DNA of 64,000 bases from Natrinema versiforme (GTDB taxonomy: Archaea; Halobacteriota; Halobacteria; Halobacteriales; Natrialbaceae): positions 682,001-746,000 of the forward strand of contig NZ_CP040330.1 in assembly GCF_005576615.1 (NCBI RefSeq), given 5' to 3'. The translations under genes and the position numbers were made by a program. The notes beneath the pieces were generated by a model. That model did no database searches, was not told the DNA's origin, and saw nothing but the letters and a program-made list of their open reading frames with translations. Of the stretch, positions 29,916 through 45,081 are shown piece after piece. Every line of letters starts with the position of its first letter. The first letter of the stretch is position 1.

Positions 29916-30079
29916 GACGCGGGTCGATCGGCAGCCGTCGTATTCTTTCACACGCCGCGGACCGACGAGCGCCGAGTGCAACGCCGAACTCGGGCGTCGA
30001 CCGGTCCCGCGGACCGCTCGAGACACGGCGCGAGAGCGGAGTCCGACACCCTAAAGCGGCCGGACTCTGTGGTTCGGAT

Positions 30080-32704
30080 ATGGAGTATCACGAGGCGGCG
30101 GACTTCCTCTTCGATCTGCGGCGGTTCCGCCCGAAGCCGGGCACGGAGTCGACGGCCCGGCTGCTGGCCCACCTCGGGAACCCACACGACGACGTCGACT
30201 TCGTCCAGATCGCCGGCTCCAACGGGAAGGGGAGCACGGCCCGAATGCTCGAGCGGACCCTGCGGGAAGCCGGCTATTCCGTCGGCCTCTACACCTCGCC
30301 ACACCTCGAGGACCTCCGCGAGCGCGTCCGCGTCGACGGCCGGAAAATCCCCCGCGCCGCGGTCTGTGAGTACGTCGACGCTGCCAGCGAGTACATCACG
30401 GAGCGCGGTGCCGACGGCGACTCGCCGACGTTTTTCGAGACGATGACCGCAATGGCGATCTGGCAGTTCGGCCGCGAGGACGTCGATATCGCCGTCCTCG
30501 AGGTCGGTATCGGCGGCAAGTACGACGCCACGAGCGTCGTCGACCCGGTCGCGAGCGCGGTGACGAGCGTGACCTTGGAGCACACGGGCATCCTCGGCGA
30601 TACCGTCGAGGAGATCGCCCGCGACAAGGCCCACGTCGCGCCGGCCGACGCACCGCTCGTGACGGGCGTCACCGGGAGCCCGCTCGAGGCGATCCGCGAG
30701 GTCGCCGGCGACGTGGTGACCGTCGGACCGAAGCCGGACGAGAACGATGGCGACGACGAGGGCTCGCGACCGGACGTCCGCGTCGCCTACGGCGGGCGGA
30801 CCAACCACACCGAAGCCGCCGTCTCGATCGACGCCGACGACTGGGACCTCGAGACGCGGATTCCGTTGCTGGGTGCATACCAGGCTGAAAACGCGGGTAT
30901 CGCCGCGCCCCTCGCCCGGCAGGTCGGCGACGTCTCGGGGACGGACCTCGAGCGCGGCCTGCGGAGCGCCCACTGGCCGGGCCGGTTCGAGGTGCTCGAC
31001 ACCGAGCCGCTGGTCGTCCTCGACGGCGCGCACAACCCGGGAGCCTGCGAGGGACTCGCCGAGACGCTCGGGACCTACGACTACGACGACCTCCACCTCG
31101 TCTTCGGCGCGATGCACGACAAGGACCACCGCGAGATGGCCGCCGCCCTGCCGACGCCCGATATCGTCACCGCGACCGAACCGTCCCTCGATCGCGCCGA
31201 GGAGTCGGCCGTCCTCGCGGACGTCTTCGCGGACGCCGGTGCCGGCACCGTCCGAACCGAGCCGGCAGTACCGGACGCGCTCGCAAGCGCCCTCGCGGAC
31301 GCCGAGCGCGACGACTGCGTGCTCGTCACCGGCTCGCTGTTCGCGGTCGCCGAGGCCCGCTCGAGGTGGACCCGAACCGATGTTTCGAAGCGGGTCCGCG
31401 ACCGCTCGGACGCACGGGACGCGCTCGAGGCGGCGAACGTCGCCGCGGGCGACGTGGAACGGCTGGACGGCGACGCCGTCCACCGGGTCATCAGGACGGC
31501 GCTGCGGGACCGGCAGGCGACCGTCCTCAAGGAGGAACTGCTCCGGGTCGGCGGCGAGTGCGCCCTCTCCGGCCTCGAGCGGGACGACGAGGCCGTCGAC
31601 GCCGTTCTAATGGGCACGCTCGCCCAGTTCGAGGCGCTCGTCGGGGCCCTCGAGAACCGATCCCGGCCCCACGGGCTGGCCGATGTCACCCGCGAGTTGC
31701 GGACGACCCTCGAGATCGACGCCGGTGCCGGAGTCGATCCCGGAGCCGAAGCGGAGACGGGTGCGGATGGCGGCGATGAAAAAAGCGACGCCGCAGCCGC
31801 CGTAACTGACGTATCGGAGGCGGATCACCGGACGGGTCCGGCTCACGCACCCGGCTGGACGACAGAGGGCTCGAGCGGCCCGGACTACCCGTGGACAGAC
31901 CGAACGGCCGTGATGGGAATTCTGAACGTCACGCCCGACAGCTTTCACGACGGCGGCGAGTACGACGCGCTCGAGGACGCCGTAACCCGCGCCGAGGCGA
32001 TGATCGAGGCCGATGTCGACGTGATCGATATCGGCGGGGAGTCCACCCGGCCGGGCGCAGATCCCGTCTCGGTCGCGGAGGAACTCGATCGGGTCGTCCC
32101 CGTGATCGAACGGATCGCCGACCTCGACGCCCTGATTTCGGTCGACACCCGGCGGGCCGCCGTCGCCGACGCCGCGCTCGAGGCCGGCGCGGACATCATC
32201 AACGACGTCTCGGGACTCGAGGACCCCGAGATGCGGTTCGTCGCGGCCGACCACGACGCGGGGCTGGTCGTCATGCACAGCATCGACGCGCCAGTCGTCC
32301 CGGACCGCGATATCGAGTACGACGACGTCGTCGCGGACGTGATCGACCAGCTCTCCGAGCGCATCCTGCTGGCCGAGAAGGCCGGGCTCGACCGGAGTCA
32401 GATCATCGTCGACCCCGGTATCGGCTTCGGCAAATCGGCGGCCGAGAACTTCGAACTCCTCGATCGGATCGACGAGTTCCACGCGCTGGGCTGTCCGGTG
32501 CTGTTCGGTCACTCCCACAAATCCATGTTCGAACGGGTCGGTCGCGAATCCGGCGAGCGACTCGAGGCGACCGTCGCGGCGAGCGCGCTGGCGGCCGACC
32601 GCGGGGCCGACCTGATTCGCGTCCACGACGTAGCCGAGAACGTCGCCGCGGTCCGGACGGCGCTGGCGGCGCGCGATCCGGAGCGGTTCGACTGGGGCTC
32701 GTGA
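30080..32704 (+). CDS. folCP: Bifunctional folylpolyglutamate/dihydrofolate synthase and dihydropteroate synthase (FolC-FolP fusion)
   Basis: An 874-residue fusion. Residues about 1-430 are a FolC Mur-ligase fold: P-loop IAGSNGKGSTARML near 49, EVGIGGKYDATSVV, and VVLDGAHNPGACEGL near 315. Residues about 435-560 form an extra helical domain seen in haloarchaeal FolP proteins. An acidic, alanine-rich linker (about 560-600) follows. From Met612 comes dihydropteroate synthase: MGILNVTPDSFHDGG, DIGGESTRPGA, INDVSG, DPGIGFGKSAAENFELL, FGHSHKS and IRVHDVAENV. It would condense a pterin with p-aminobenzoate and then add glutamate. FolCP fusions are established in haloarchaea. I start at ATG 30080; the upstream open extension is low-complexity and antisense-like. 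Confidence 0.95.
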   Translation: MEYHEAADFLFDLRRFRPKPGTESTARLLAHLGNPHDDVDFVQIAGSNGKGSTARMLERTLREAGYSVGLYTSPHLEDLRERVRVDGRKIPRAAVCEYVDAASEYITERGADGDSPTFFETMTAMAIWQFGREDVDIAVLEVGIGGKYDATSVVDPVASAVTSVTLEHTGILGDTVEEIARDKAHVAPADAPLVTGVTGSPLEAIREVAGDVVTVGPKPDENDGDDEGSRPDVRVAYGGRTNHTEAAVSIDADDWDLETRIPLLGAYQAENAGIAAPLARQVGDVSGTDLERGLRSAHWPGRFEVLDTEPLVVLDGAHNPGACEGLAETLGTYDYDDLHLVFGAMHDKDHREMAAALPTPDIVTATEPSLDRAEESAVLADVFADAGAGTVRTEPAVPDALASALADAERDDCVLVTGSLFAVAEARSRWTRTDVSKRVRDRSDARDALEAANVAAGDVERLDGDAVHRVIRTALRDRQATVLKEELLRVGGECALSGLERDDEAVDAVLMGTLAQFEALVGALENRSRPHGLADVTRELRTTLEIDAGAGVDPGAEAETGADGGDEKSDAAAAVTDVSEADHRTGPAHAPGWTTEGSSGPDYPWTDRTAVMGILNVTPDSFHDGGEYDALEDAVTRAEAMIEADVDVIDIGGESTRPGADPVSVAEELDRVVPVIERIADLDALISVDTRRAAVADAALEAGADIINDVSGLEDPEMRFVAADHDAGLVVMHSIDAPVVPDRDIEYDDVVADVIDQLSERILLAEKAGLDRSQIIVDPGIGFGKSAAENFELLDRIDEFHALGCPVLFGHSHKSMFERVGRESGERLEATVAASALAADRGADLIRVHDVAENVAAVRTALAARDPERFDWGS

Positions 32705-32807: not shown

Positions 32808-35800
32808 CTATTCCGCCGGCCCGCAGCCCAGCGATCGATGCGGGCAGTGCCGGCAGTGCTCGCCCGGCGTCGTCTCCCGAAACGAGGGCTCGTCGACCGC
32901 CTCGAGTGTCTCGAGGACGGAGTCCCACGACGGGAGGTCGTCGGGCTCCATGAGGTCGACGCGAGGGCCGTCGACGTCGCCGACGTAGACGTAGCCGACG
33001 GCCGAAATCGGCTCGTCGAACTGGTCCTCGCAGGCCCGCAGGTAGAGCGCCAACTGGACGGCCTCGTCGGGGGAGAGCCGCTCGGCGGTGGCCTTGTAGT
33101 CGAGGACGGCGAGCCCGCCGTCGGGCAGCCGCCGGACCGTGTCCACGTAGCCGACTACGTCGCCGGTCACGCCGGCCACGTCCTCGAGCGAGAAGGGCAA
33201 CTCCGCGGCCAGCGGCTCCCAGTCGGCGACCGGCCGATCGAACGCGGGCGCGGTCGCCTCGAAGTACCGGTCGACGCAGGCGAGGACGCCCTCGCGGTGT
33301 GCGAGCAGGTCGCGCGCGGTGAGCTGTCGCACGGCCGCCTCGCGCCACGCCCCGCGGCCGTGGTACTCGCGGTGGAAGGCCTCCTCCGCCACGTCGTGGA
33401 AGACGGTGCCGACGATCCGCGCCGACGGGTCGGCAGCCGCTGCGGTCTCGGTTCCGACTCTTTCCGCCCACTCGAGCGGATCGGGGTCGTCGATCGCTCG
33501 GACGACGTGATCGAGGTAGTGTTTCCGCGCGCAGGTCTCGTGGGTGTCCATCGCGGAGTAGCTGTGACGCATCGCGACCGGCAGTTCGGTCGCCGTCGCG
33601 AGCGTCTCGACCGGGAAGCGGACGGTGTCGGTCGTCAGCGCGGAGAGCCGGCGGCCGCTGGGAACGCGAGTCGCCGGCTCCGAGCCGTCGGCCGACGCCG
33701 CCTCGAGCGGGCCGTGACTCGCGGCGTCGGCGGCCGATAGCAGGGTCCCGTCGCGAAGCTGTCGACCCAGTCGGTGGACGGTCTCGATCGCCTCGCGAGT
33801 CTCGAGGGGCTCGACGGGGCGGTCCCCGTAGTCGGCGTAGTAGGTGATGGTCCCCGGGCTCTCGCCGGCCGAGGCGGCGATCTCGTCCGTGCGGTCGACG
33901 ACCGTTTCGGGGTAGACTTCGCGCACCCGCTCGAAGCTCTCGGTCAGCGACGACCAGAGGTCCATCCGCTGGCCGGTCACGGACCACTCGATGTCGGTCG
34001 CCAGACACGCATCGGCCGTCGACGCCGCGAGTTCGTCCTCGTCGCCGTCGTACTCGTAGTCGGAGCCGAACACGAACAGGTGGTTCTCGGCTCGAGTGAG
34101 CGCGACGTGGAGCACCCGCCACTCCTCGCCGACCCGCTCCGCGGCGAGGTCGGCATGCAGCGGGGAGTCGACCTCGTCGTCGAGCGTCGCGGCCAGCAGC
34201 CGGTACCGCGCTCGCTCGACGTAATCCCCGTCGACGCACCACTCCTCGTCCGAGAGGTAGGGCACGAGGACGGTGTCGAACTCGAGGCCCTTCGCCTGAT
34301 GGACCGTCATCACGTCGACGCAGTCGTCGGATCTGGTCCCGCGGGTCCGGTCGCTCCCGCCGCTCCGAAGCGTCTGGGCGAGCGCGTCCATGAACTCGGT
34401 CGAGAGCGACTGGACGACGCCGTCGGCGTCGTAGGCCTCGACGAACCGCTCGAGGCGGTCGAACTGGCCCCGCTCCTCGCTCGTACAGAACCACTCGATC
34501 CGGGTGAGCTCTCGGAACCGGCGGACGAATCCCGAGAGCGGGTAGACGTCCCGGACCCGCTCGAGTTCCGCGAGGTGGTCCCGAGCGGTCGCGAGCCCGT
34601 CGGGGTGCTCGAGGTCGAGCGCCGCCGGATCGGTCGCCGTCACCGCGTCGTACAGCGAGCCATCTCGCCGTTGCAGCGCCGCGAGGTCGGCCTCGGGGAG
34701 CCGGTACCGGTAAAGCAGCACGCGCCGGAGGTGGGCGTCCGCGTCCGGCTCGACGAGGACGCGCAGGTACGAGAGCACCGTCTGAATCCCGGGCGAGATC
34801 TCCCCGCGGGGCGAGCCGGAGATCTCGTAGGGAATCTGCAGGTCCCGCAGTTCGTCCGCGACGGCCTGTGCGTGGCGATTCGTCCGGACGATGACCGCGA
34901 GATCGCCCAGCGAGCGCCGGGGGACGTTCGCGGCCTCGCCGTTGAGCAGCCGCGAGACCGTCGTCGCGACCTGTTCGGGCGTCGACTGGGGCACCGCGTC
35001 GCTCTCGACCTTGACGACGCGGTCCGGCGGCTCCGCCTCGTCGTAGGTCCCGCGCGTCCGGCCGTCCTCCCGCAGCGTCTTCGAGGACTGCGGGCCGTAG
35101 TCACAGCCGTTGGTCAGGTCCAGGATCTCCTGTCTCGAGCGGAAGTTGAGCTCGAGTTCGATCGCCTCGTGGTCGTCGTAGGCCTCTGCCAGCCGGTCGA
35201 GCCCCTCGCGGTCGGTGCCGCGCCAGCCGTAGATCGCCTGGTCCTTGTCGCCGATCGCGAGCAGGTCCGGCCGGTCGGGGCCGTCCGTGAGTTCGGTGAC
35301 CAGCGAGAACTGGGTCTCGTCGGTGTCCTGAAACTCGTCGCAGTAGACCTGCGTCCACTGGCCGGTGATCTCGCTTGCAATCGTCTCACGGGCCGTCGGC
35401 CCGTTCGACATCTCCGCGGAACGTCGTTCCGCGCTCTCGTCGTCCAGCAGCCCCGTCGCCGTCCGCACCAACTCGTCGAAGTCCATCGTCCGCTCGGCCT
35501 CGAGCGCGTCGTGGTAATCCGCGTAGACGTCGGCGTAGTGGCGGGCCAGCCGGAGGAACTCGACGTAGTGTTTCAGGCGACCGAAGGGAGTCTGTTCGAT
35601 CCGGCTCGTCGCCTGCCCCCAGATCCGGTTGCCGAACAGCGCCCGCGGCAGGTGTTTCGTGGTCCGGTCGTCCAGCGAGAGCGTCTCGATCGTGTTCGTC
35701 ACGCACGTCTGGAGGGTCCGGAGATACCGGTCGATATCTCGAACCACGTCGTCCTCGCGGAACGTGTCCGGTGCCTCCGCGATCTTCTCCCGACAGTAGG

Positions 35801-36500
35801 AAACGAGCTTGCCGTAATCGACCAGCGACTCCCGGGCCGTCTCGAGGTGCTCGTCCCGGTTGAAGTACCGGAACGCCTCGTTGTCGAAGGAGAGGTCGTC
35901 GCCGGCCGTTCGCTCGAGCCAGAGGACGAACTCGTTGCACAGCTCGAGGGTGCGAACCGGCGGCAGCCCCGACTGTAAATCCTCGGGCGTGATGTCTTCT
36001 TGGCTCATCGACTGGATGAACCGGTCGACCGAGTCGACGAGGTCGGCCGGCGAGCCGTCGTTGCGGGTCGATGCGGCCGCGAAATCGTAGTCGTTGGTCG
36101 CGAGTAACCGGCCGATGAGCCGCCGTCGCGTGCGCTCGGTGACGACGTCGAACTCGGGCGAGTAGCCCAGATAGTAGGCGTACTCACGGACCAGCCGGTA
36201 GCAAAAGGAGTGGTAGGTGTAGACGTCGATCGCCGCCGCGGCGTCGGGATCGAGCCGCTCGGCGACCGCCGTGCGGATGCTCGCGGCGGCCTCGTTGGCG
36301 AAGGTCAACACGAGCACGTCGTCGGGATCGACGTCGCCCCGCTCGACGGCGCGCTCGAGTCGGACGAGCATCGTCGTCGTCTTCCCGGTGCCCGCGCCCG
36401 CGTCGACGGAGGTACAGGCCGCGCGGCTGTCGATGACCGCCTCCTGATTGCCCTTCGGTTCGATGTCCTCGGCCGCTCCGTCCCGCGGCGTCTCACCCAT
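32808..36500 (-). CDS. UvrD/AddA-like SF1 helicase with C-terminal iron-sulfur PD-(D/E)XK nuclease
   Basis: A 1230-residue protein, the last gene of a three-gene operon. SF1 motifs are complete: Walker A VDAGAGTGKTTT (residues 33-43), VLTFANEAA, DEXX box YCDEFQDTDETQ, GDKDQAIYGWRG, ELNFRSRQEI, motif V VMTVHQAKGLEFDTV and motif VI HVALTRAENHLFVFG. The C-terminal about 250 residues are an AddB/Cas4-type nuclease: GTVFHDVAEEAFH, aspartate in VGYVDTV, LDYKAT with Asp1134 and Lys1136, and QLALYLRACE. Cysteines 990, 1216, 1219 and 1226 match a C...CxxC..C iron-sulfur frame. By family it should unwind and degrade DNA ends. The ATG overlaps the upstream gene by 8 bp. Confidence 0.93.
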   Translation of the reverse strand: MGETPRDGAAEDIEPKGNQEAVIDSRAACTSVDAGAGTGKTTTMLVRLERAVERGDVDPDDVLVLTFANEAAASIRTAVAERLDPDAAAAIDVYTYHSFCYRLVREYAYYLGYSPEFDVVTERTRRRLIGRLLATNDYDFAAASTRNDGSPADLVDSVDRFIQSMSQEDITPEDLQSGLPPVRTLELCNEFVLWLERTAGDDLSFDNEAFRYFNRDEHLETARESLVDYGKLVSYCREKIAEAPDTFREDDVVRDIDRYLRTLQTCVTNTIETLSLDDRTTKHLPRALFGNRIWGQATSRIEQTPFGRLKHYVEFLRLARHYADVYADYHDALEAERTMDFDELVRTATGLLDDESAERRSAEMSNGPTARETIASEITGQWTQVYCDEFQDTDETQFSLVTELTDGPDRPDLLAIGDKDQAIYGWRGTDREGLDRLAEAYDDHEAIELELNFRSRQEILDLTNGCDYGPQSSKTLREDGRTRGTYDEAEPPDRVVKVESDAVPQSTPEQVATTVSRLLNGEAANVPRRSLGDLAVIVRTNRHAQAVADELRDLQIPYEISGSPRGEISPGIQTVLSYLRVLVEPDADAHLRRVLLYRYRLPEADLAALQRRDGSLYDAVTATDPAALDLEHPDGLATARDHLAELERVRDVYPLSGFVRRFRELTRIEWFCTSEERGQFDRLERFVEAYDADGVVQSLSTEFMDALAQTLRSGGSDRTRGTRSDDCVDVMTVHQAKGLEFDTVLVPYLSDEEWCVDGDYVERARYRLLAATLDDEVDSPLHADLAAERVGEEWRVLHVALTRAENHLFVFGSDYEYDGDEDELAASTADACLATDIEWSVTGQRMDLWSSLTESFERVREVYPETVVDRTDEIAASAGESPGTITYYADYGDRPVEPLETREAIETVHRLGRQLRDGTLLSAADAASHGPLEAASADGSEPATRVPSGRRLSALTTDTVRFPVETLATATELPVAMRHSYSAMDTHETCARKHYLDHVVRAIDDPDPLEWAERVGTETAAAADPSARIVGTVFHDVAEEAFHREYHGRGAWREAAVRQLTARDLLAHREGVLACVDRYFEATAPAFDRPVADWEPLAAELPFSLEDVAGVTGDVVGYVDTVRRLPDGGLAVLDYKATAERLSPDEAVQLALYLRACEDQFDEPISAVGYVYVGDVDGPRVDLMEPDDLPSWDSVLETLEAVDEPSFRETTPGEHCRHCPHRSLGCGPAE

Positions 36501-37542
36501 CGAACCGCACCTCCTGACCGATGTACTCCTGACAGCAGACGGTGTATTCGCAGTCAGGACAGGCGTGTTCCTCGATCTGATCCCAGCGGTCGGACGGATC
36601 GAACGGCCCGGAGATGAGGCTCGAGGCGACGGTTGCGAGTCGACTATCGACGGTCTCGTTTCGGTGATCGTGGGTCATGCCGTAGGTGTGGTGATCGACG
36701 TAGACGTCGGTGAGATCGACGACCTCGAGGCTCGTCTCGACGGTGTCCCGGACCCAGTTCACCGCCGTCCCAGACCGGTCGGCCAGCGGAATCTGGACGT
36801 ATCGGCAGGTCCGATCGCCCAACTCGAGCCGGTCGCGGAGGGTACGGAGCCCGTCGATGACGACGGCGGTCTCGAAGAGCGAACCCACCGGGTCCGGGTC
36901 GAACGCGTCCCGCTCGTCGTCGAAGTGGTCGGTGAAGAGGTCGGCCACGTCGCCCTCCCAGTCGGAGCGATAGCGCAGGCGGCCGAGCGGTGCGAGCGTC
37001 GGGACGAACCGGACGCCGACGATCGACGAGCCGTCGCCGTAGACGTAATCGACCGTCGCGTCGATCGTCACCGCGTCGGCCGCGGGCGGGTCGGAGCCGC
37101 CCGCCGCGTCGGGGAGCGCGACCGTACTCGAGAGCGGTAGCTCCGGCCCGATCAGTTCGCCGCGGGCCGCATCGGCGTCGAGGGCCTCGAGCCCCGCGGC
37201 GTGGTCGACGCCGACGCGTTCGAGGTACGCCGAAAGCGTCGCCTCGAGCACCCGCCGTTCGTGGCGGCGCTGGGCGACGGAGTGGAACGGCTCGTCGTGG
37301 TCGGTCCACAGCGCCGAGAGCCGGTCGCGGGCGACGGTTTCGAGCCCCGCGCGGTCGGTCTCGCCGCTCCGGAGCGCGTCGCAGATGGCGGTCCGCAGGA
37401 GGGCGACGCGGTCGTCGACGGCGTCGTCGTCGCTCCCCTCGAGTCCGTGGACGTGGGCGAACTCGTGCCGCCGGGGGCAGTGAAGCGCGGTGCGGAGCCC
37501 GTCGACCGAAAGCGAGGCGGCGCTCGAGTCGGTGTCAGTCAT
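36493..37542 (-). CDS. Iron-sulfur PD-(D/E)XK nuclease-like protein, probably catalytically inactive
   Basis: A 349-residue protein between the other two genes of the operon, overlapping each by 8 bp. Cys22 (LHCPRRHEFAHVHG) and the C-terminal cluster Cys328, Cys331, Cys336 and Cys337 (ACPDCEYTVCCQEY) have the spacing of the four-cysteine iron-sulfur pin of AddB, Cas4 and related nucleases. In the core, the position expected to hold D-Y-K reads IVGVRFVP, so the metal-binding aspartate and catalytic lysine appear missing, although TIDATVDYVYGDG keeps the strand shape. It resembles the nuclease domain of AddB encoded as a separate subunit. A structural or DNA-gripping role is an inference. I start at 37542; the longer frame adds arginine-serine nonsense. 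Confidence 0.75.
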   Translation of the reverse strand: MTDTDSSAASLSVDGLRTALHCPRRHEFAHVHGLEGSDDDAVDDRVALLRTAICDALRSGETDRAGLETVARDRLSALWTDHDEPFHSVAQRRHERRVLEATLSAYLERVGVDHAAGLEALDADAARGELIGPELPLSSTVALPDAAGGSDPPAADAVTIDATVDYVYGDGSSIVGVRFVPTLAPLGRLRYRSDWEGDVADLFTDHFDDERDAFDPDPVGSLFETAVVIDGLRTLRDRLELGDRTCRYVQIPLADRSGTAVNWVRDTVETSLEVVDLTDVYVDHHTYGMTHDHRNETVDSRLATVASSLISGPFDPSDRWDQIEEHACPDCEYTVCCQEYIGQEVRFDG

Positions 37543-39817
37543 CGCGGACCACCTCGCCTGCGGCGAACTCGAACTGCGAGCGGATCGCCTCGGCGAGTTC
37601 GTCGTCGATATCGCCCTCCTCGAGGACGACCGCGATCTCCTCGAACAGCGTCTCGGTCTCGCCGAGATCGGCCTCGCCACCGGTGCTCGCCTCTCGGAGC
37701 ACCCGCTCGAGTTCGCCCCGCGGCTGGGCCAGCAGCGCCTCGAGCGCGTTCGTCTCGCCGTGGATCGCCGCGTCCGCGGCGGCGTCGATCTCCTCGAAGG
37801 CGAGGCCGGGCGTCGATTCGATCAGTTTCAGGTAGCGCGACTCGTCGTAGGTTCGCTGCAGGCTTCCCGAACCCCGCTCGTAGGAACAGCAGTAGAGCGC
37901 GCGTTCGGCGGCGCGAGCCCCGAGCGCGAGTCGCCTGCGGGACCGCTGGGCGTGGTACGACTCGAAGGGGTCGCCGATATCGGCTGCGTCGACCGTTTCG
38001 AAGGTCTCCGCGATGTCCGCGTCCGAGGGGGCCGTGACCGCGGGATAGGCCGGCATGTTCCGGAGCCACGCCGTCGGGAACAGCTGTGTGAGGAACTGTT
38101 CGCCCGGGTAGGTCTCGTCGATCAGATCCAGCAGGAAGACCGCCTTCCGCGAGTCGTACTTGAGGTCGTCGACGGCACAGACGGTGACGCCGCCGGTCGG
38201 CGGCCGCGTCTCGACCGCGTGGACGTACGGCGCGTCGTACTGGATCGTCCGGCGGAGCATCCGGCGTAGCCCCTGCCAGTCCGGCCCGACCAGATCCGTC
38301 TCCTCGACGAACCGGGCGATCTCGAGGACCCGCCGGACCCCCTCGTACTGCTCGCGGGCGTCGATCCAGTCCTCCTCGCGGGCGATCCGCCCCTTCAGGT
38401 CCGTCTCCCGGATCCAGCGCTCGAGCGAACGGCGGACGCTCGCCCCGGCGGTCGTCGCCAGCAGGTCCGGCGAGAACTCGGGGACGCGGGCGCGGAGTCG
38501 GTCCAGCGAGATGTCCCGCGGGTCGCTCGAGTCCCGCCTGTGGTCGGGCGACTCGGCTCGAGCGAGTTCGTCGCCGCCGTCTCGCTCGCGTTCGCACTGG
38601 AGCGTGACGACCGCGTAGAGTTCGTTCACCGCGGGATCGTCCGCCAGCGAGGGAGTACCGATCGTCGCCGTCGGCACGCCGGCGTCCCGGAGCCGCCGTC
38701 TCGTCTCCGGTACCCGTTCGATCCGCGGGACCGCGACGGCGAACTCGTCGTGAGACCAGCCGTGGCGGTCGCGCAGCGATTCGATTTCGGTCGCGACCGC
38801 CTGCACCTGTTCGCGGGCCGTCTCGGTCCGAACACGTCGCGCGACGCCCGCCGGCTCGGCGTCTCCGGGTTCAGCCCCGGCCGCCGCGTCGGGCGTGGTT
38901 CGATCCGGCATCTCGCCGGTCGCGAGAAATCGAGTGATGGCGCGATGTGGGGGTGAGGGAGGTGAACCCTCGGTACCGTCTTCGGCGGCGGCCACGGGCT
39001 CGAGCGGCTCGACCTCGAGGCCGGCCTCGGTCGCGATAGTCGCGACGCGGCCCGGTTCGACCCGCGTTCGCTCGACGCTGGCGTGGCGCTCGCCGAGACA
39101 GACGAGGTCGGCGTCGCGCGTGAGCGCCGCGAGGTACCGGCGGTCGAGCCGGCGGTACTCCTCGAATTCGACGGCGAGAACGGCGTCGAACGAGCCGGTG
39201 ACGCGGGTTCGCAGGCCGTCGGCGTCCGCCTCGAGCAGGTCGACCGCCTGCGGGACCACGTCGGCCCGCTCGACGTAGTCCCGGTCGTCGAGCTCCGCGT
39301 GGAACCGGTCGTTCATCGCGTACAGGAAGGCGAGACAGTCGTGGGGATCGTCGCTCTCGAGATCGTCGAGCCGGAGCCGCTGGCGGGTCGCCTCGAGCAG
39401 CAGTTGCCCCACGTCGCGCGAGAAGCTCTCGTGGGCGGCCGCGCGCTCGAGGTAGTCGGGCACCGCGCGGCTCGCGCCGTCGATCACCAGCGAGATGAGT
39501 TCGATACGTTCCTCGTACTCGAGGCGGGAGAGCGTGGGATCGTATTCCTCGATGGTTTTCGAGGCGTGTTCCGGCAGCGATTCGATCCGGGGCGAACGGG
39601 GTCCCCCGTCAGCCGGCTCGCGGTCGATCTCGGCCAGCGCGTCGGTCAGGGACTCGAGGCCCGTCGGATGTCGTTTCAGGACCAGAACGTTTCGCGGGCC
39701 GTGTTCAGCCGCGAGGGCGGCGTATTCGACGGCGACGGTCGCGAACACGTCGCTACCGGGGGCGGGGCCCGGGAGGAGCTTGCAGGTTCCGTCGAGTGCG
39801 GGCGGCGGGGACGCCAT
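37535..39817 (-). CDS. Inactivated SF1 helicase, AddB/RecC-like subunit
   Basis: A 760-residue protein, first gene of the operon. The N-terminus KLLPGPAPGSDVFATVAVEYAALAAEHG has the layout of an SF1 motif I (beta strand, loop, helix), but residues 17-23 read GPAPGSD instead of GxxGxGKT, so ATP binding is probably lost. Later segments match AddB landmarks: EFAVAVPRIERVPETRRRL (motif IV region), VTVCAVDDLKYDSRKAVFLLDLIDETYPGE (the motif with VFVLGLxEGxFP in AddB) and SRRRLALGARAAERALYCCSYERGSG (motif VI position). It lacks the C-terminal nuclease of AddB; that role seems carried by the next gene. In RecBCD terms it is the RecC-like scaffold. The call rests on motif layout, not alignment. Confidence 0.72.
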   Translation of the reverse strand: MASPPPALDGTCKLLPGPAPGSDVFATVAVEYAALAAEHGPRNVLVLKRHPTGLESLTDALAEIDREPADGGPRSPRIESLPEHASKTIEEYDPTLSRLEYEERIELISLVIDGASRAVPDYLERAAAHESFSRDVGQLLLEATRQRLRLDDLESDDPHDCLAFLYAMNDRFHAELDDRDYVERADVVPQAVDLLEADADGLRTRVTGSFDAVLAVEFEEYRRLDRRYLAALTRDADLVCLGERHASVERTRVEPGRVATIATEAGLEVEPLEPVAAAEDGTEGSPPSPPHRAITRFLATGEMPDRTTPDAAAGAEPGDAEPAGVARRVRTETAREQVQAVATEIESLRDRHGWSHDEFAVAVPRIERVPETRRRLRDAGVPTATIGTPSLADDPAVNELYAVVTLQCERERDGGDELARAESPDHRRDSSDPRDISLDRLRARVPEFSPDLLATTAGASVRRSLERWIRETDLKGRIAREEDWIDAREQYEGVRRVLEIARFVEETDLVGPDWQGLRRMLRRTIQYDAPYVHAVETRPPTGGVTVCAVDDLKYDSRKAVFLLDLIDETYPGEQFLTQLFPTAWLRNMPAYPAVTAPSDADIAETFETVDAADIGDPFESYHAQRSRRRLALGARAAERALYCCSYERGSGSLQRTYDESRYLKLIESTPGLAFEEIDAAADAAIHGETNALEALLAQPRGELERVLREASTGGEADLGETETLFEEIAVVLEEGDIDDELAEAIRSQFEFAAGEVVRDD

Positions 39818-39849
39818 CGGTTGTACGTCACCGTGTATGGCCGAATCCC

Positions 39850-39862
39850 TACTTAAATGTGG
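39850..39862 (-). promoter_or_regulatory. TATA-like promoter of the helicase-nuclease operon
   Basis: On the minus strand CACATTTAAGTAG lies about 33-45 nt before the ATG at 39817. It is the only strong TATA match in the gap to the divergent CBS gene and would drive all three overlapping genes. Confidence 0.45.
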
Positions 39863-39976: not shown

Positions 39977-39991
39977 CGAATACGGTACAGT

Positions 39992-40396
39992 ATGGAGGAT
40001 ATTTTCGTCGCTCGAGTCATGTCCTCGTCACTGCACACGGTGGCGCCGGACACGCTCGTCGAGGACGCCGCACAGGAAATGCTCGACAACGAAATCGGCT
40101 CGGTCGTCGTCGTCGACGACGACAACCGGCTCGAGGGGATCCTGACGACGACGGACTTCGTCAAGATCGTCGCCGAACAGAAGCCGAAAGACCAGACGCC
40201 GGTCTCGACGTACATGAGCGCCGACGTCGTGACGGTCACGGCCCAGGACAGCATCCGCGACGCCGCGGACACGATGGTCGAACGGGGCTTTCACCACATC
40301 CCCGTCATCGACGAGGACGAGGGCGTCATCGGCATGGTCACGACGTCGGATCTGGCGGGCTACATTTCTCGCGTCCAGTCGCCGAGTCCCGAGTAA
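39992..40396 (+). CDS. Two-CBS-domain protein
   Basis: A 134-residue protein made of a CBS pair. The first repeat is VMSSSLHTVAPDTLVEDAAQEML...RLEGILTTTDFV and the second MSADVVTVTAQDSIRDAADTMVERGFHHIPVID...VIGMVTTSDLA. CBS pairs bind adenosine ligands and usually act as regulatory modules; here nothing else is fused, so it may act in trans or bind DNA/RNA partners. The start at 39992 is favoured by a TATA box at about -27; the frame upstream in phase is arginine-rich and not protein-like. It is divergent from the helicase-nuclease operon. Confidence 0.9.
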   Translation: MEDIFVARVMSSSLHTVAPDTLVEDAAQEMLDNEIGSVVVVDDDNRLEGILTTTDFVKIVAEQKPKDQTPVSTYMSADVVTVTAQDSIRDAADTMVERGFHHIPVIDEDEGVIGMVTTSDLAGYISRVQSPSPE

Positions 40397-42117: not shown

Positions 42118-45081
42118 TCAGTCGTCGTCCATCGGCGCCGTCACGGGCTCGACCCGCTCGCCGCGCGGCCCCTCGAGGTCGATCTTCGGCAGCAGGTCGC
42201 GCAGGTAGCGCCCGGTGTGGGAGTCCTCGAGTCGCGCGACGTCTTCCGGCGTCCCGGTGGCGACGATTTCGCCGCCGTTCTCGCCGCCCTCGGGGCCGAG
42301 GTCGATGACGTGATCGGCGTTCTTCACGAGGTCGAGCTCGTGCTCGATGACGACGACGGTGTTGCCGTTGTCGGTCAGCCGGTGGAGGACGTCGATGAGC
42401 TTGCGCTCGTCCTCGCTGTGGAGCCCGGTGGTGGGCTCGTCGAGCAGATAGAGCGTCTCGCCCGAGTCCTTCTTCCCCAACTCTTCGGCGAGCTTGATCC
42501 GCTGGGCCTCGCCGCCCGACAGCGTGGTCGAGGGCTGGCCGAGTTTCATGTAGTCGAGTCCGACGTCTTTCAGCAGCTTGAGCCGCCGGCGGATCTGGCT
42601 CGATGACTCGAAGAAGTCGTAGGCCTCCTCGACCGACATCTCGAGAACGTCGGCGATGGTCTTGCCCTTGTAGGTGACGTCGAGCGTGGCGTCGTTGTAG
42701 CGCGCGCCGTCGCACTCCTCGCAGGGAACGTAGACGTCGCTCAGGAAGTTCATCTCGATTTTCACCGTTCCTTGCCCGCCACACTCCTCGCAGCGACCGC
42801 CCTTGACGTTGAACGAGAAGCGCCCCTTCTCGTAGCCGCGCTGTTTCGCGAGCTTCGTCGAAGCGAACAGCTCGCGGATGTAGTCGAAGACGCTGGTGTA
42901 CGTCGCGGGGTTCGATCGCGGGGTCCGGCCGATCGGCGACTGGTCGATCAGCCGCACGGTCTCGATCTGATCGAGCCCCTCGAGGGCGTCGTGATCGCCC
43001 GGAATCACGGACGTGTTGTCGTTCATCTGACGGGCGAGGCCCTTGTAGAACACCTCGTGCATGAGGGTGGACTTCCCGGAGCCTGAGACGCCCGTAATGG
43101 CGGTGAAGCAGCCCAGCGGGATGTCGACGTCGAGGTCCTTGAGGTTGTGCTGGCGCGCGCCGCGGATCGTCAGCGCGCCGTCGGGGTCGCGTCGCTCGTC
43201 GGGGACCGGAATCTGTCGTCGACCGGAGAGGTAGTCGCCGGTGACCGAGTTCTCGGTCGCCGTGACCTCCTCGACGGAGCCGTTGGCGACGACCTCGCCG
43301 CCGCGCTTGCCGGGGCCGGGCCCCATGTCGATGACGTTGTCCGCCCGGCGCATCGTCTCCTCGTCGTGTTCGACCACGAGGAGGGTGTTGCCCAGATCGC
43401 GGAGCTCCTCGAGGGTATCCAGCAGCCGGTCGTTGTCCCGCTGGTGGAGTCCGATCGAGGGCTCGTCGAGCACGTAGAGGACCCCCACGAGACCGGAGCC
43501 GATCTGCGTGGCGAGCCGAATCCGCTGGCTCTCACCGCCCGAGAGCGTCGAGGCCTCCCGATCGAGCGTGATGTAGTCGAGGCCGACCTCGCACATGAAG
43601 CCGAGTCGCGCCCGGATCTCTTTCAGGATCTCCTCGGCGATGACCTTCTCGCGCTCGGTGAGGTCCGCTTCCATCGCCTCGAAGTGGTCGCGAGCGTCGC
43701 CGATGCTCATCGCGTTGATCTCCGTGATGGCGGTACCGTCGACCAGCACCGCTCTCGAGGCGGGCTTCAGGCGGGTGCCGTCACAGGCCGGACACTCCGT
43801 GACCGACATGTAGTCCTCGATGTGTTCGCGGGTCGAGTCGGAGTCGGTCTCGAGGTACCGGCGCTCTAAGTTCGGGATGACGCCCTCGAAGTGCTTCCGC
43901 TTCCGGCGGGTACCGTTCTTGGTGCTTCGCTTGAACACCACTTCGCCGTCCGTGCCGTAGAGGAACGCCTGCTGGACGTCCTCGTCGAGGTCTTCGAACG
44001 GCGTCGACAGCGAGACGCCGAAGTGCTCGGCGACGGCGTCGAGGCGGGTCTGATAGTACGAGCGGTTGTAGCTCCACGGCTCGAAGACGTGCTTGAGCGG
44101 CTTGGACTCGTCTTGCAGGACGAGGTCCTCGTCGACCTCCTTCGTCTCGCCGAGTCCCTCACACTCCGGACAGGCACCGTGGGGCGAGTTGAACGAGAAC
44201 GATCGGGTCTCGATCTCGGGGATATCGATCCCGCAGTGCGTACAGGCGAGATCCTTCGAGAACTCGACGACGAACCGGTCGTTCGCCTCGGTCTCCTCGC
44301 CGAGCGCACCGGTCCGGCGGGCCTCTTCGCCGAGGTCCGCGGCGACTTCTTCGGAGGCGTCCGGCAGGATGACCTTCAGGACGCCCTCGGCCTCGTCGAG
44401 CGCCGTCTCGACGCTGTCGATGATCCGCGGGCGGGCCTCGGTCGAGACCTTCACGCGGTCGACGATCACGTCGACGGTGTGATCGAAGTTCTCGTCGAGA
44501 TCGGGGTCGTCCATCGCGAGGTCGTACTCCTCGCCGTCGATCTCGACGCGGGCGTACCCCTCGGAGACGAGTTCCTCGAAGAGATCCTCGAACGCACCCT
44601 TCTGGTCGCGGACGACGGGTGCCGCGAGTTTGGCCTTGGTTCCCTCGGGCAGCTCGAGGATGCGCTCGACCATGTTCTGGGCCGACTGCTCGCCGACTTC
44701 GCGACCGCACTCGGGGCAGTGGGGCGTGCCGACGCGGGCGTAGAGCAGCCGCAGGTAGTCGTGGAGTTCGGTGACGGTCCCGACCGTCGATCGGGGGTTG
44801 TTCGCGGCGTTCTTCTGGTCGATCGAGATCGCCGGCGAGAGGCCCTCGACGGTCTCGACCTGCGGTTTGTCCATCTGGCCGAGGAAGTTCCGCGCGTAGG
44901 CGGAGAGGCTCTCGATGTACCGGCGCTGGCCTTCCGCGTAGACCGTCTCGAACGCCAGCGAGGACTTGCCCGAACCCGAGAGGCCGGTGACGACGGTAAA
45001 CGCCTCGCGGGGGATCGTCACGTCGATGTCCTTGAGGTTGTGCTCCTCCGCGCCGCGCACTTCGATGGTGTTCTTACTCAT
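42118..45081 (-). CDS. uvrA: Excinuclease ABC subunit A
   Basis: A 987-residue nucleotide-excision-repair damage sensor of the ABC ATPase superfamily. The first Walker A is [20 protein letters not shown] near residue 33 and the second [19 protein letters not shown] near 665. ABC signatures are [20 protein letters not shown] and [17 protein letters not shown]. Zinc modules are at HCPECG (about 120), [25 protein letters not shown] (about 275) and [23 protein letters not shown] (about 750). Archaea with UvrABC are mostly halophiles and methanogens. uvrB and uvrC are not adjacent. Length is a little above the bacterial 940, from acidic insertions typical of halophiles. Confidence 0.97.

Follow-up and report, generated by a model that had tools for sequence, protein, structure and literature searches.

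A three-gene operon of Natrinema versiforme and other haloarchaea: a probable AddAB/RecBCD-type helicase-nuclease with a divided AddB-type chain

The operon and its surroundings

The window, a stretch of 64,000 nucleotides from Natrinema versiforme (contig NZ_CP040330.1, positions 682,001 to 746,000), contains three consecutive genes on the minus strand, denoted P1, P2 and P3. P1 (37535..39817, 760 aa) encodes a predicted inactivated SF1 helicase-type subunit of the AddB/AdnA/RecC kind, without a nuclease. P2 (36493..37542, 349 aa, with its ATG at 37542) encodes an Fe-S subunit of the PD-(D/E)XK fold, the putative counterpart of the C-terminal nuclease domain of AddB and AdnA, and P3 (32808..36500, 1230 aa) a predicted SF1A (UvrD-type) helicase with a C-terminal Fe-S nuclease of the RecB type. 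The end of P1 overlaps the start of P2 by 8 bp (37535..37542, minus strand), and the end of P2 overlaps the start of P3 by the same length (36493..36500, minus strand), exactly as the preliminary description of this DNA had reported. In 38 related loci, an 8-bp overlap was present at 35 of the P1/P2 junctions and also at 35 of the P2/P3 junctions, and is therefore not due to chance. That these are chance reading frames was ruled out by their conservation in all loci.

The TATA-like promoter noted previously is the sequence TTTAAGTA (39850..39857, minus strand), which is 40 nt upstream of the start of P1 and is kept in relatives: TTTAA(A/G)TA is found about 40 nt before the ATG of P1 in most of those from Natrialbaceae. 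Between this TATA box and the start of P1 is a 16-nt block, CATACACGGTGACGTA (39824..39839, minus strand), which is conserved across Natrialbaceae, often reads CATACTCGGTGACGTA in relatives, and is a possible initiator or operator.

The promoter region is shared with a divergent CBS-domain gene on the plus strand (39986-40396), which sits beside the operon in 35 of the 38 loci. The excision repair gene uvrA (42118-45081, minus strand) lies about 2.3 kb upstream, and was found a few kb from the operon in at least 18 of the 38 loci, a number limited by the length of flank fetched. Downstream is a plus-strand FolC-FolP fusion (approximately 30077-32704), which joins a folylpolyglutamate synthase of the Mur-ligase type to a pterin-binding dihydropteroate synthase and recurs in 13 of the 38 loci. 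With these neighbors, the window locus has the appearance of a repair-type locus that is stable in the chromosome. In the neighborhood examined there were no recognised defence genes next to the operon, including no Argonaute or PLD gene. The operon had no match among phages or viral contigs, by which a phage origin was ruled out. NurA was present in all 59 haloarchaea tested, including this one, where its gene lies apart from the operon; thus, HerA-NurA has not been replaced by the operon.

Inheritance and distribution of the three genes

Relatives of P1 were present in all 24 genomes of the same genus that were searched, and one scan of a genome collection returned P1 relatives at 38 loci, all in Natrialbaceae. 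The order P1-P2-P3 was maintained in every one of these, and synteny and overlaps were also seen in 20 divergent loci. Of 242 haloarchaeal genomes, 87 contained P1, 83 P2 and 85 P3 (the last counted at E ≤ 1e-80); these were the same genomes, and the genes were adjacent on the same contigs. Four genomes gave no P2 call; direct reading of the ORFs revealed P2 in three of them (G137, G176 and G179), and the fourth (G092) contained only a broken P1. P2 was a separate gene in all loci examined. The preliminary description had claimed a linked gene set and had named unlinked, independently distributed genes as evidence against it. The survey of haloarchaeal genomes showed no such pattern, and the linkage stands.

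The three genes are inherited as a unit. In trees of 19 lineages, P1 and P3 shared 16 of 16 splits, while P2 shared 11 of 16 with each; a P3 with unrelated neighbors was ruled out by this congruence. All three trees separate two clades with a support of 99–100: clade A, in which the active site of P2 is intact, and clade B, which includes the window and in which it is lost. This state switches a single time on each tree, so that the inactivation of P2 was probably one event, in the ancestor of clade B, although the trees are unrooted and formally allow P2 to have been regained.

The window copy, in clade B, is chromosomal and vertically inherited in Natrialbaceae. Copies of clade A are carried by plasmids and located within defence islands, at times beside Argonaute-PLD genes. 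Relatives of the operon were found on 16 haloarchaeal plasmid records, where the neighbors include AAA ATPases, type III and type I restriction-modification, BREX-5, and PLD/tyrosyl-DNA phosphodiesterase genes. A Piwi gene lies ≈2–3 kb upstream on the same strand in eight genomes (G040, G045, G068, G081, G132, G159, G178 and G234), and on a plasmid of Salinigranum marinum (L111:7151-18421) the genes for Piwi, PLD, P1, P2 and P3 form one run. Cheng et al. (2024) showed plasmids and a virus to be restricted by a haloarchaeal Argonaute-PLD system, and recorded a helicase gene without a name next to some ago-agaP operons (PMC11442185); the association of clade A with these systems may account for that gene. 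On a plasmid of halophilic archaeon DL31 (L131:469-13462), a lone P3 adjoins a transposase, near genes for a metallophosphoesterase, SMC, NurA and DUF87.

We considered the possibility that the operon, including the copy in the window, is mainly an anti-invader defence system that degrades foreign DNA ends produced by Argonaute-PLD or restriction enzymes, with repair as a secondary role. The plasmid records, the restriction-modification or BREX-5 genes that adjoin several relatives and the Piwi and PLD genes that directly adjoin some are all consistent with this idea, as are the helicase gene noted by Cheng et al. (PMC11442185) and the assignment of UvrD-Cas4 fusions to defence (PMC5704561). 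However, the window copy is a chromosomal one that has passed vertically through Natrialbaceae, next to the CBS gene, often close to uvrA and without recognised defence neighbors, and no match exists in phage or viral contigs. A mainly defensive role that extends to the window is therefore unlikely, even if a real contender. It is most likely that the chromosomal copy serves break repair, and that the clade A copies degrade or process invader DNA.

The subunits and their predicted activities

P1 alone gave no Pfam match and no significant NCBIfam match. A profile built from 19 diverse P1 members, however, ranked AddB first among solved structures (3u44_B, E 6e-8), the kind of hit that the preliminary description had sought for this protein, followed by UvrD1 (1e-7) and AdnA (2e-4); the match to AddB spans only positions 62–328 of the profile. 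(Profile searches of the PDB with the narrow alignments A1 and A2 and with alignment A5 led nowhere.) The AlphaFold2 model of P1 was of low to modest confidence (pLDDT 61, pTM 0.38), but matched SF1 helicases over nearly its full length in Foldseek, with E-values of 1e-19 for UvrD/Rep, 8e-17 for AddB and 3e-16 for AdnA, so that UvrD fits the model at least as well as AddB does. VIA-align superimposed 560 residues on AddB (Z 11.7, rmsd 9.7) and 497 residues on Rep (Z 18.0, rmsd 11.9). None of the 19 lineages has a Walker A, and each carries another residue in place of the motif II Asp. Taken with the fold matches, this indicates that P1, as judged from sequence and model, has the SF1 fold but lacks a motor. 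The inactivated helicase-like protein proposed earlier is thereby upheld, and model matching did not reveal the non-SF1 fold that would have spoken against it. As a reference for Chi recognition we used the ionic latch E129/R629 of Bacillus subtilis AddB; the P1 position aligned to Glu129 is not conserved, in a region where the alignment is weak.

In P2, Pfam detected only the first half of a PDDEXK_1 domain (E 2e-6). Profile searches of the PDB with P2 gave no sequence match to AddB, and the resemblance is one of fold: the top four Foldseek matches to its AlphaFold2 model (pLDDT 71) were all AddB (probability 0.96–0.99, E 2.5e-3 to 6.4e-3), and VIA-align gave Z-scores of 11.9 for the nuclease domain of AdnA, 11.7 for ACE1 (an Argonaute-associated Cas4), 11.4 for AddB and 9.9 for Dna2. 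All 19 lineages share four invariant cysteines, at positions 22, 328, 331 and 337.

Other archaea of the same phylum (L106-L110) possess a two-gene form, in which an AddB of about 1040 aa is followed by AddA. These proteins scored 1e-20 to 2e-24 with the NCBIfam model addB_Gpos and 1e-94 to 1e-103 with the addA models; as this is below the NCBIfam cut-offs, the pairs are probably not annotated as AddB-AddA operons. The P1 profile detected the ≈1040-aa AddB of each of the five loci; in two, L106 and L109, the P2 profile also detected the C-terminal part of this AddB. An AddB/AddA-like pair, consisting of a PD-(D/E)XK protein and a UvrD helicase and followed by an AAA ATPase, is also present on the Haloferax lucentense plasmid pSVX82-3 (L128:1-7539).

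P3 contains the Pfam domains UvrD-helicase (2e-49), UvrD_C (6e-27) and PDDEXK_1 (1e-21), and its profile matched PcrA (4e-92), AdnB (5e-70), AddA (3e-65) and RecB (2e-38) in the PDB. The helicase residues K40 of Walker A, DE 388-389 of motif II, R454 and R803 are invariant in 19 lineages, as are H1035, D1120, D1134, K1136, Q1149 and Y1153 of the nuclease and the cysteines at 990, 1216, 1219 and 1226. The earlier view of P3 as an active-looking SF1 helicase fused to an Fe-S nuclease thus agrees with its sequence, in which all SF1 motifs and catalytic residues are intact. When placed in a tree with archaeal AddA and archaeal UvrD-Cas4 fusions (six of each) and three PcrA/UvrD rows, but without AdnA/AdnB or bacterial AddA, P3 formed a clade of its own (support 100/100) outside both the archaeal AddA and the fusions, and its grouping with AddA was weak (82/73). 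This separation leaves the earlier suggestion that an Fe-S nuclease had moved or been copied onto AddA without support, and a copy derived from P2 was ruled out; UvrD fusions with Fe-S nucleases were in any case already known (PMC5704561).

P3 holds all of the catalytic parts, and could be a stand-alone helicase-nuclease of the UvrD-Cas4 type, with P1 and P2 as regulatory partners (an inhibitor or loader) and not as structural equivalents of AddB. PcrA outscores AddA as a match to P3, lone UvrD-Cas4 fusions exist (L101-L105, L130), and one plasmid carries P3 alone beside a transposase. Nevertheless, P3 does not fall in the archaeal UvrD-Cas4 clade, both P1 and P2 resemble AddB in fold, P1 also by sequence, the three genes are nearly always together and co-inherited, and P1- and P2-like parts are fused in a single AddB chain in other archaea. 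We consider such an arrangement improbable.

The catalytic DxK is missing from P2 of the window, where V177-R178-F179 takes its place. The site reads V-x-F, with both D and K replaced, in all 24 Natrialbaceae, whereas P2 of clade A retains an active-site DxK (FDYK, IDYK). With this loss, P2 of the window lineage is probably a dead nuclease. The preliminary description of P2 as iron-sulfur nuclease-like was thus correct with respect to the AddB/AdnA nuclease fold and the four cysteines, but had overlooked the missing catalytic residues. Such residues are relocated in some other PD-(D/E)XK enzymes, and D165 of motif II is invariant in P2, as are the four cysteines, but the replacement of D and K by V and F throughout the 24 Natrialbaceae makes it very improbable that P2 of the window is still active through a migrated or unusual active site. 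Retention of the Fe-S clamp after the loss of catalysis fits the role of the AddAB cluster, which is essential for binding broken DNA according to the title of Yeeles et al. (2009; cited in PMC4824097).

Proposed mechanism and comparison with known systems

The operon is likely to encode a single helicase-nuclease that processes DNA ends and belongs to the AddAB/AdnAB/RecBCD kind, with its AddB-type chain divided between two proteins. The best reading is that this enzyme resembles AddAB in clade A and RecBC in clade B. By analogy with these enzymes, we infer the assembly of P1, P2 and P3 into one complex, its polarity, the roles of P1 and P2 and its role in the cell. At a DNA end, P3 would load on the strand that ends in 3', translocate in the 3'-5' direction, unwind and cut; P1 would act as a non-translocating wedge or scanner through which one strand passes, and P2 as an Fe-S clamp that helps to hold P1 on the DNA end. 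In clade B, a single motor and a single nuclease, both part of P3, would do all the work, as in RecBC: with the catalytic residues of P2 lost, all cutting would fall to the P3 nuclease. In clade A, the two intact-looking nucleases could cut the two strands, in accordance with the AddAB plan.

Break resection in archaea is commonly attributed to Mre11-Rad50 together with HerA-NurA. A 2020 review of Haloferax volcanii assigned resection to Rad50-Mre11 and did not mention AddAB (PMC7776575), and we found no published description of the three-gene operon in the open-access literature. More tentatively, the operon may represent a further, three-subunit class of archaeal end-resection enzymes, whose chromosomal lineage independently converged on the single-nuclease RecBC design by killing the AddB-side nuclease and keeping the Fe-S clamp, and whose sister lineage would have been recruited as the motor-nuclease arm of haloarchaeal Argonaute-PLD immunity. 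A widespread haloarchaeal enzyme of the AddAB/RecBCD type would make processive, possibly Chi-like regulated resection testable in archaea, and the two clades provide a natural experiment on the effect of losing the second nuclease.

Among the known systems, HerA-NurA differs in kind, as the operon encodes neither a HerA ATPase nor a NurA nuclease and NurA has its own gene elsewhere in the genome. PADLOC returned generic UvrD/GajB similarity only; Gabija is set apart because these matches are of the GajB-type UvrD and no OLD-family GajA is a neighbor. The haloarchaeal Argonaute-PLD system (APAP) is related by location, since its Piwi and PLD genes immediately precede some clade A operons (system described in PMC11442185), but the window copy has no such neighbor. 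UvrD-Cas4 fusions share the domain design of P3, a UvrD-type helicase with an Fe-S Cas4-like nuclease, and the type III restriction-modification context of some clade A copies. However, they were described in defence contexts without P1 and P2 (Makarova et al. 2017, PMC5704561), and P3 and the six archaeal reference fusions form separate clades, both at 100/100.

RecBCD, like clade B, combines a single active nuclease with a dead nuclease fold on the side of the inactive helicase (RecC). It differs in that RecC is one chain and that P3 is only weakly similar to RecB, and no gene resembling RecD, the SF1B helicase chain, was seen in the operon and its neighborhood. RecB and RecC are not known to carry an Fe-S cluster, which is predicted for P2 and P3. 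Mycobacterial AdnAB (PDB 6ppu, 7sjr) has a helicase-nuclease architecture on both sides; the P3 profile scores AdnB slightly above AddA, and the fold of P2 best matches the AdnA nuclease domain. However, AdnA is one chain with recognisable Walker A/B motifs (PMC13309787), and both AdnAB chains combine a motor with a nuclease, whereas P1 has neither a nuclease nor Walker A. In AddAB of B. subtilis (PDB 3u44, 4cej), AddB is one chain that includes the Fe-S nuclease, here divided between P1 and P2, and this nuclease is catalytically intact, as it is in P2 of clade A but not in P2 of the window and the rest of clade B. The AddA nuclease lacks Fe-S cysteines, of which P3 has four of the appropriate type, and P3 lies outside the archaeal AddA clade. 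AddAB nevertheless has the same set of parts: an inactivated SF1 subunit, an Fe-S nuclease-fold domain, and an active SF1A helicase with a C-terminal nuclease, to which P3 corresponds by its sequence motifs.
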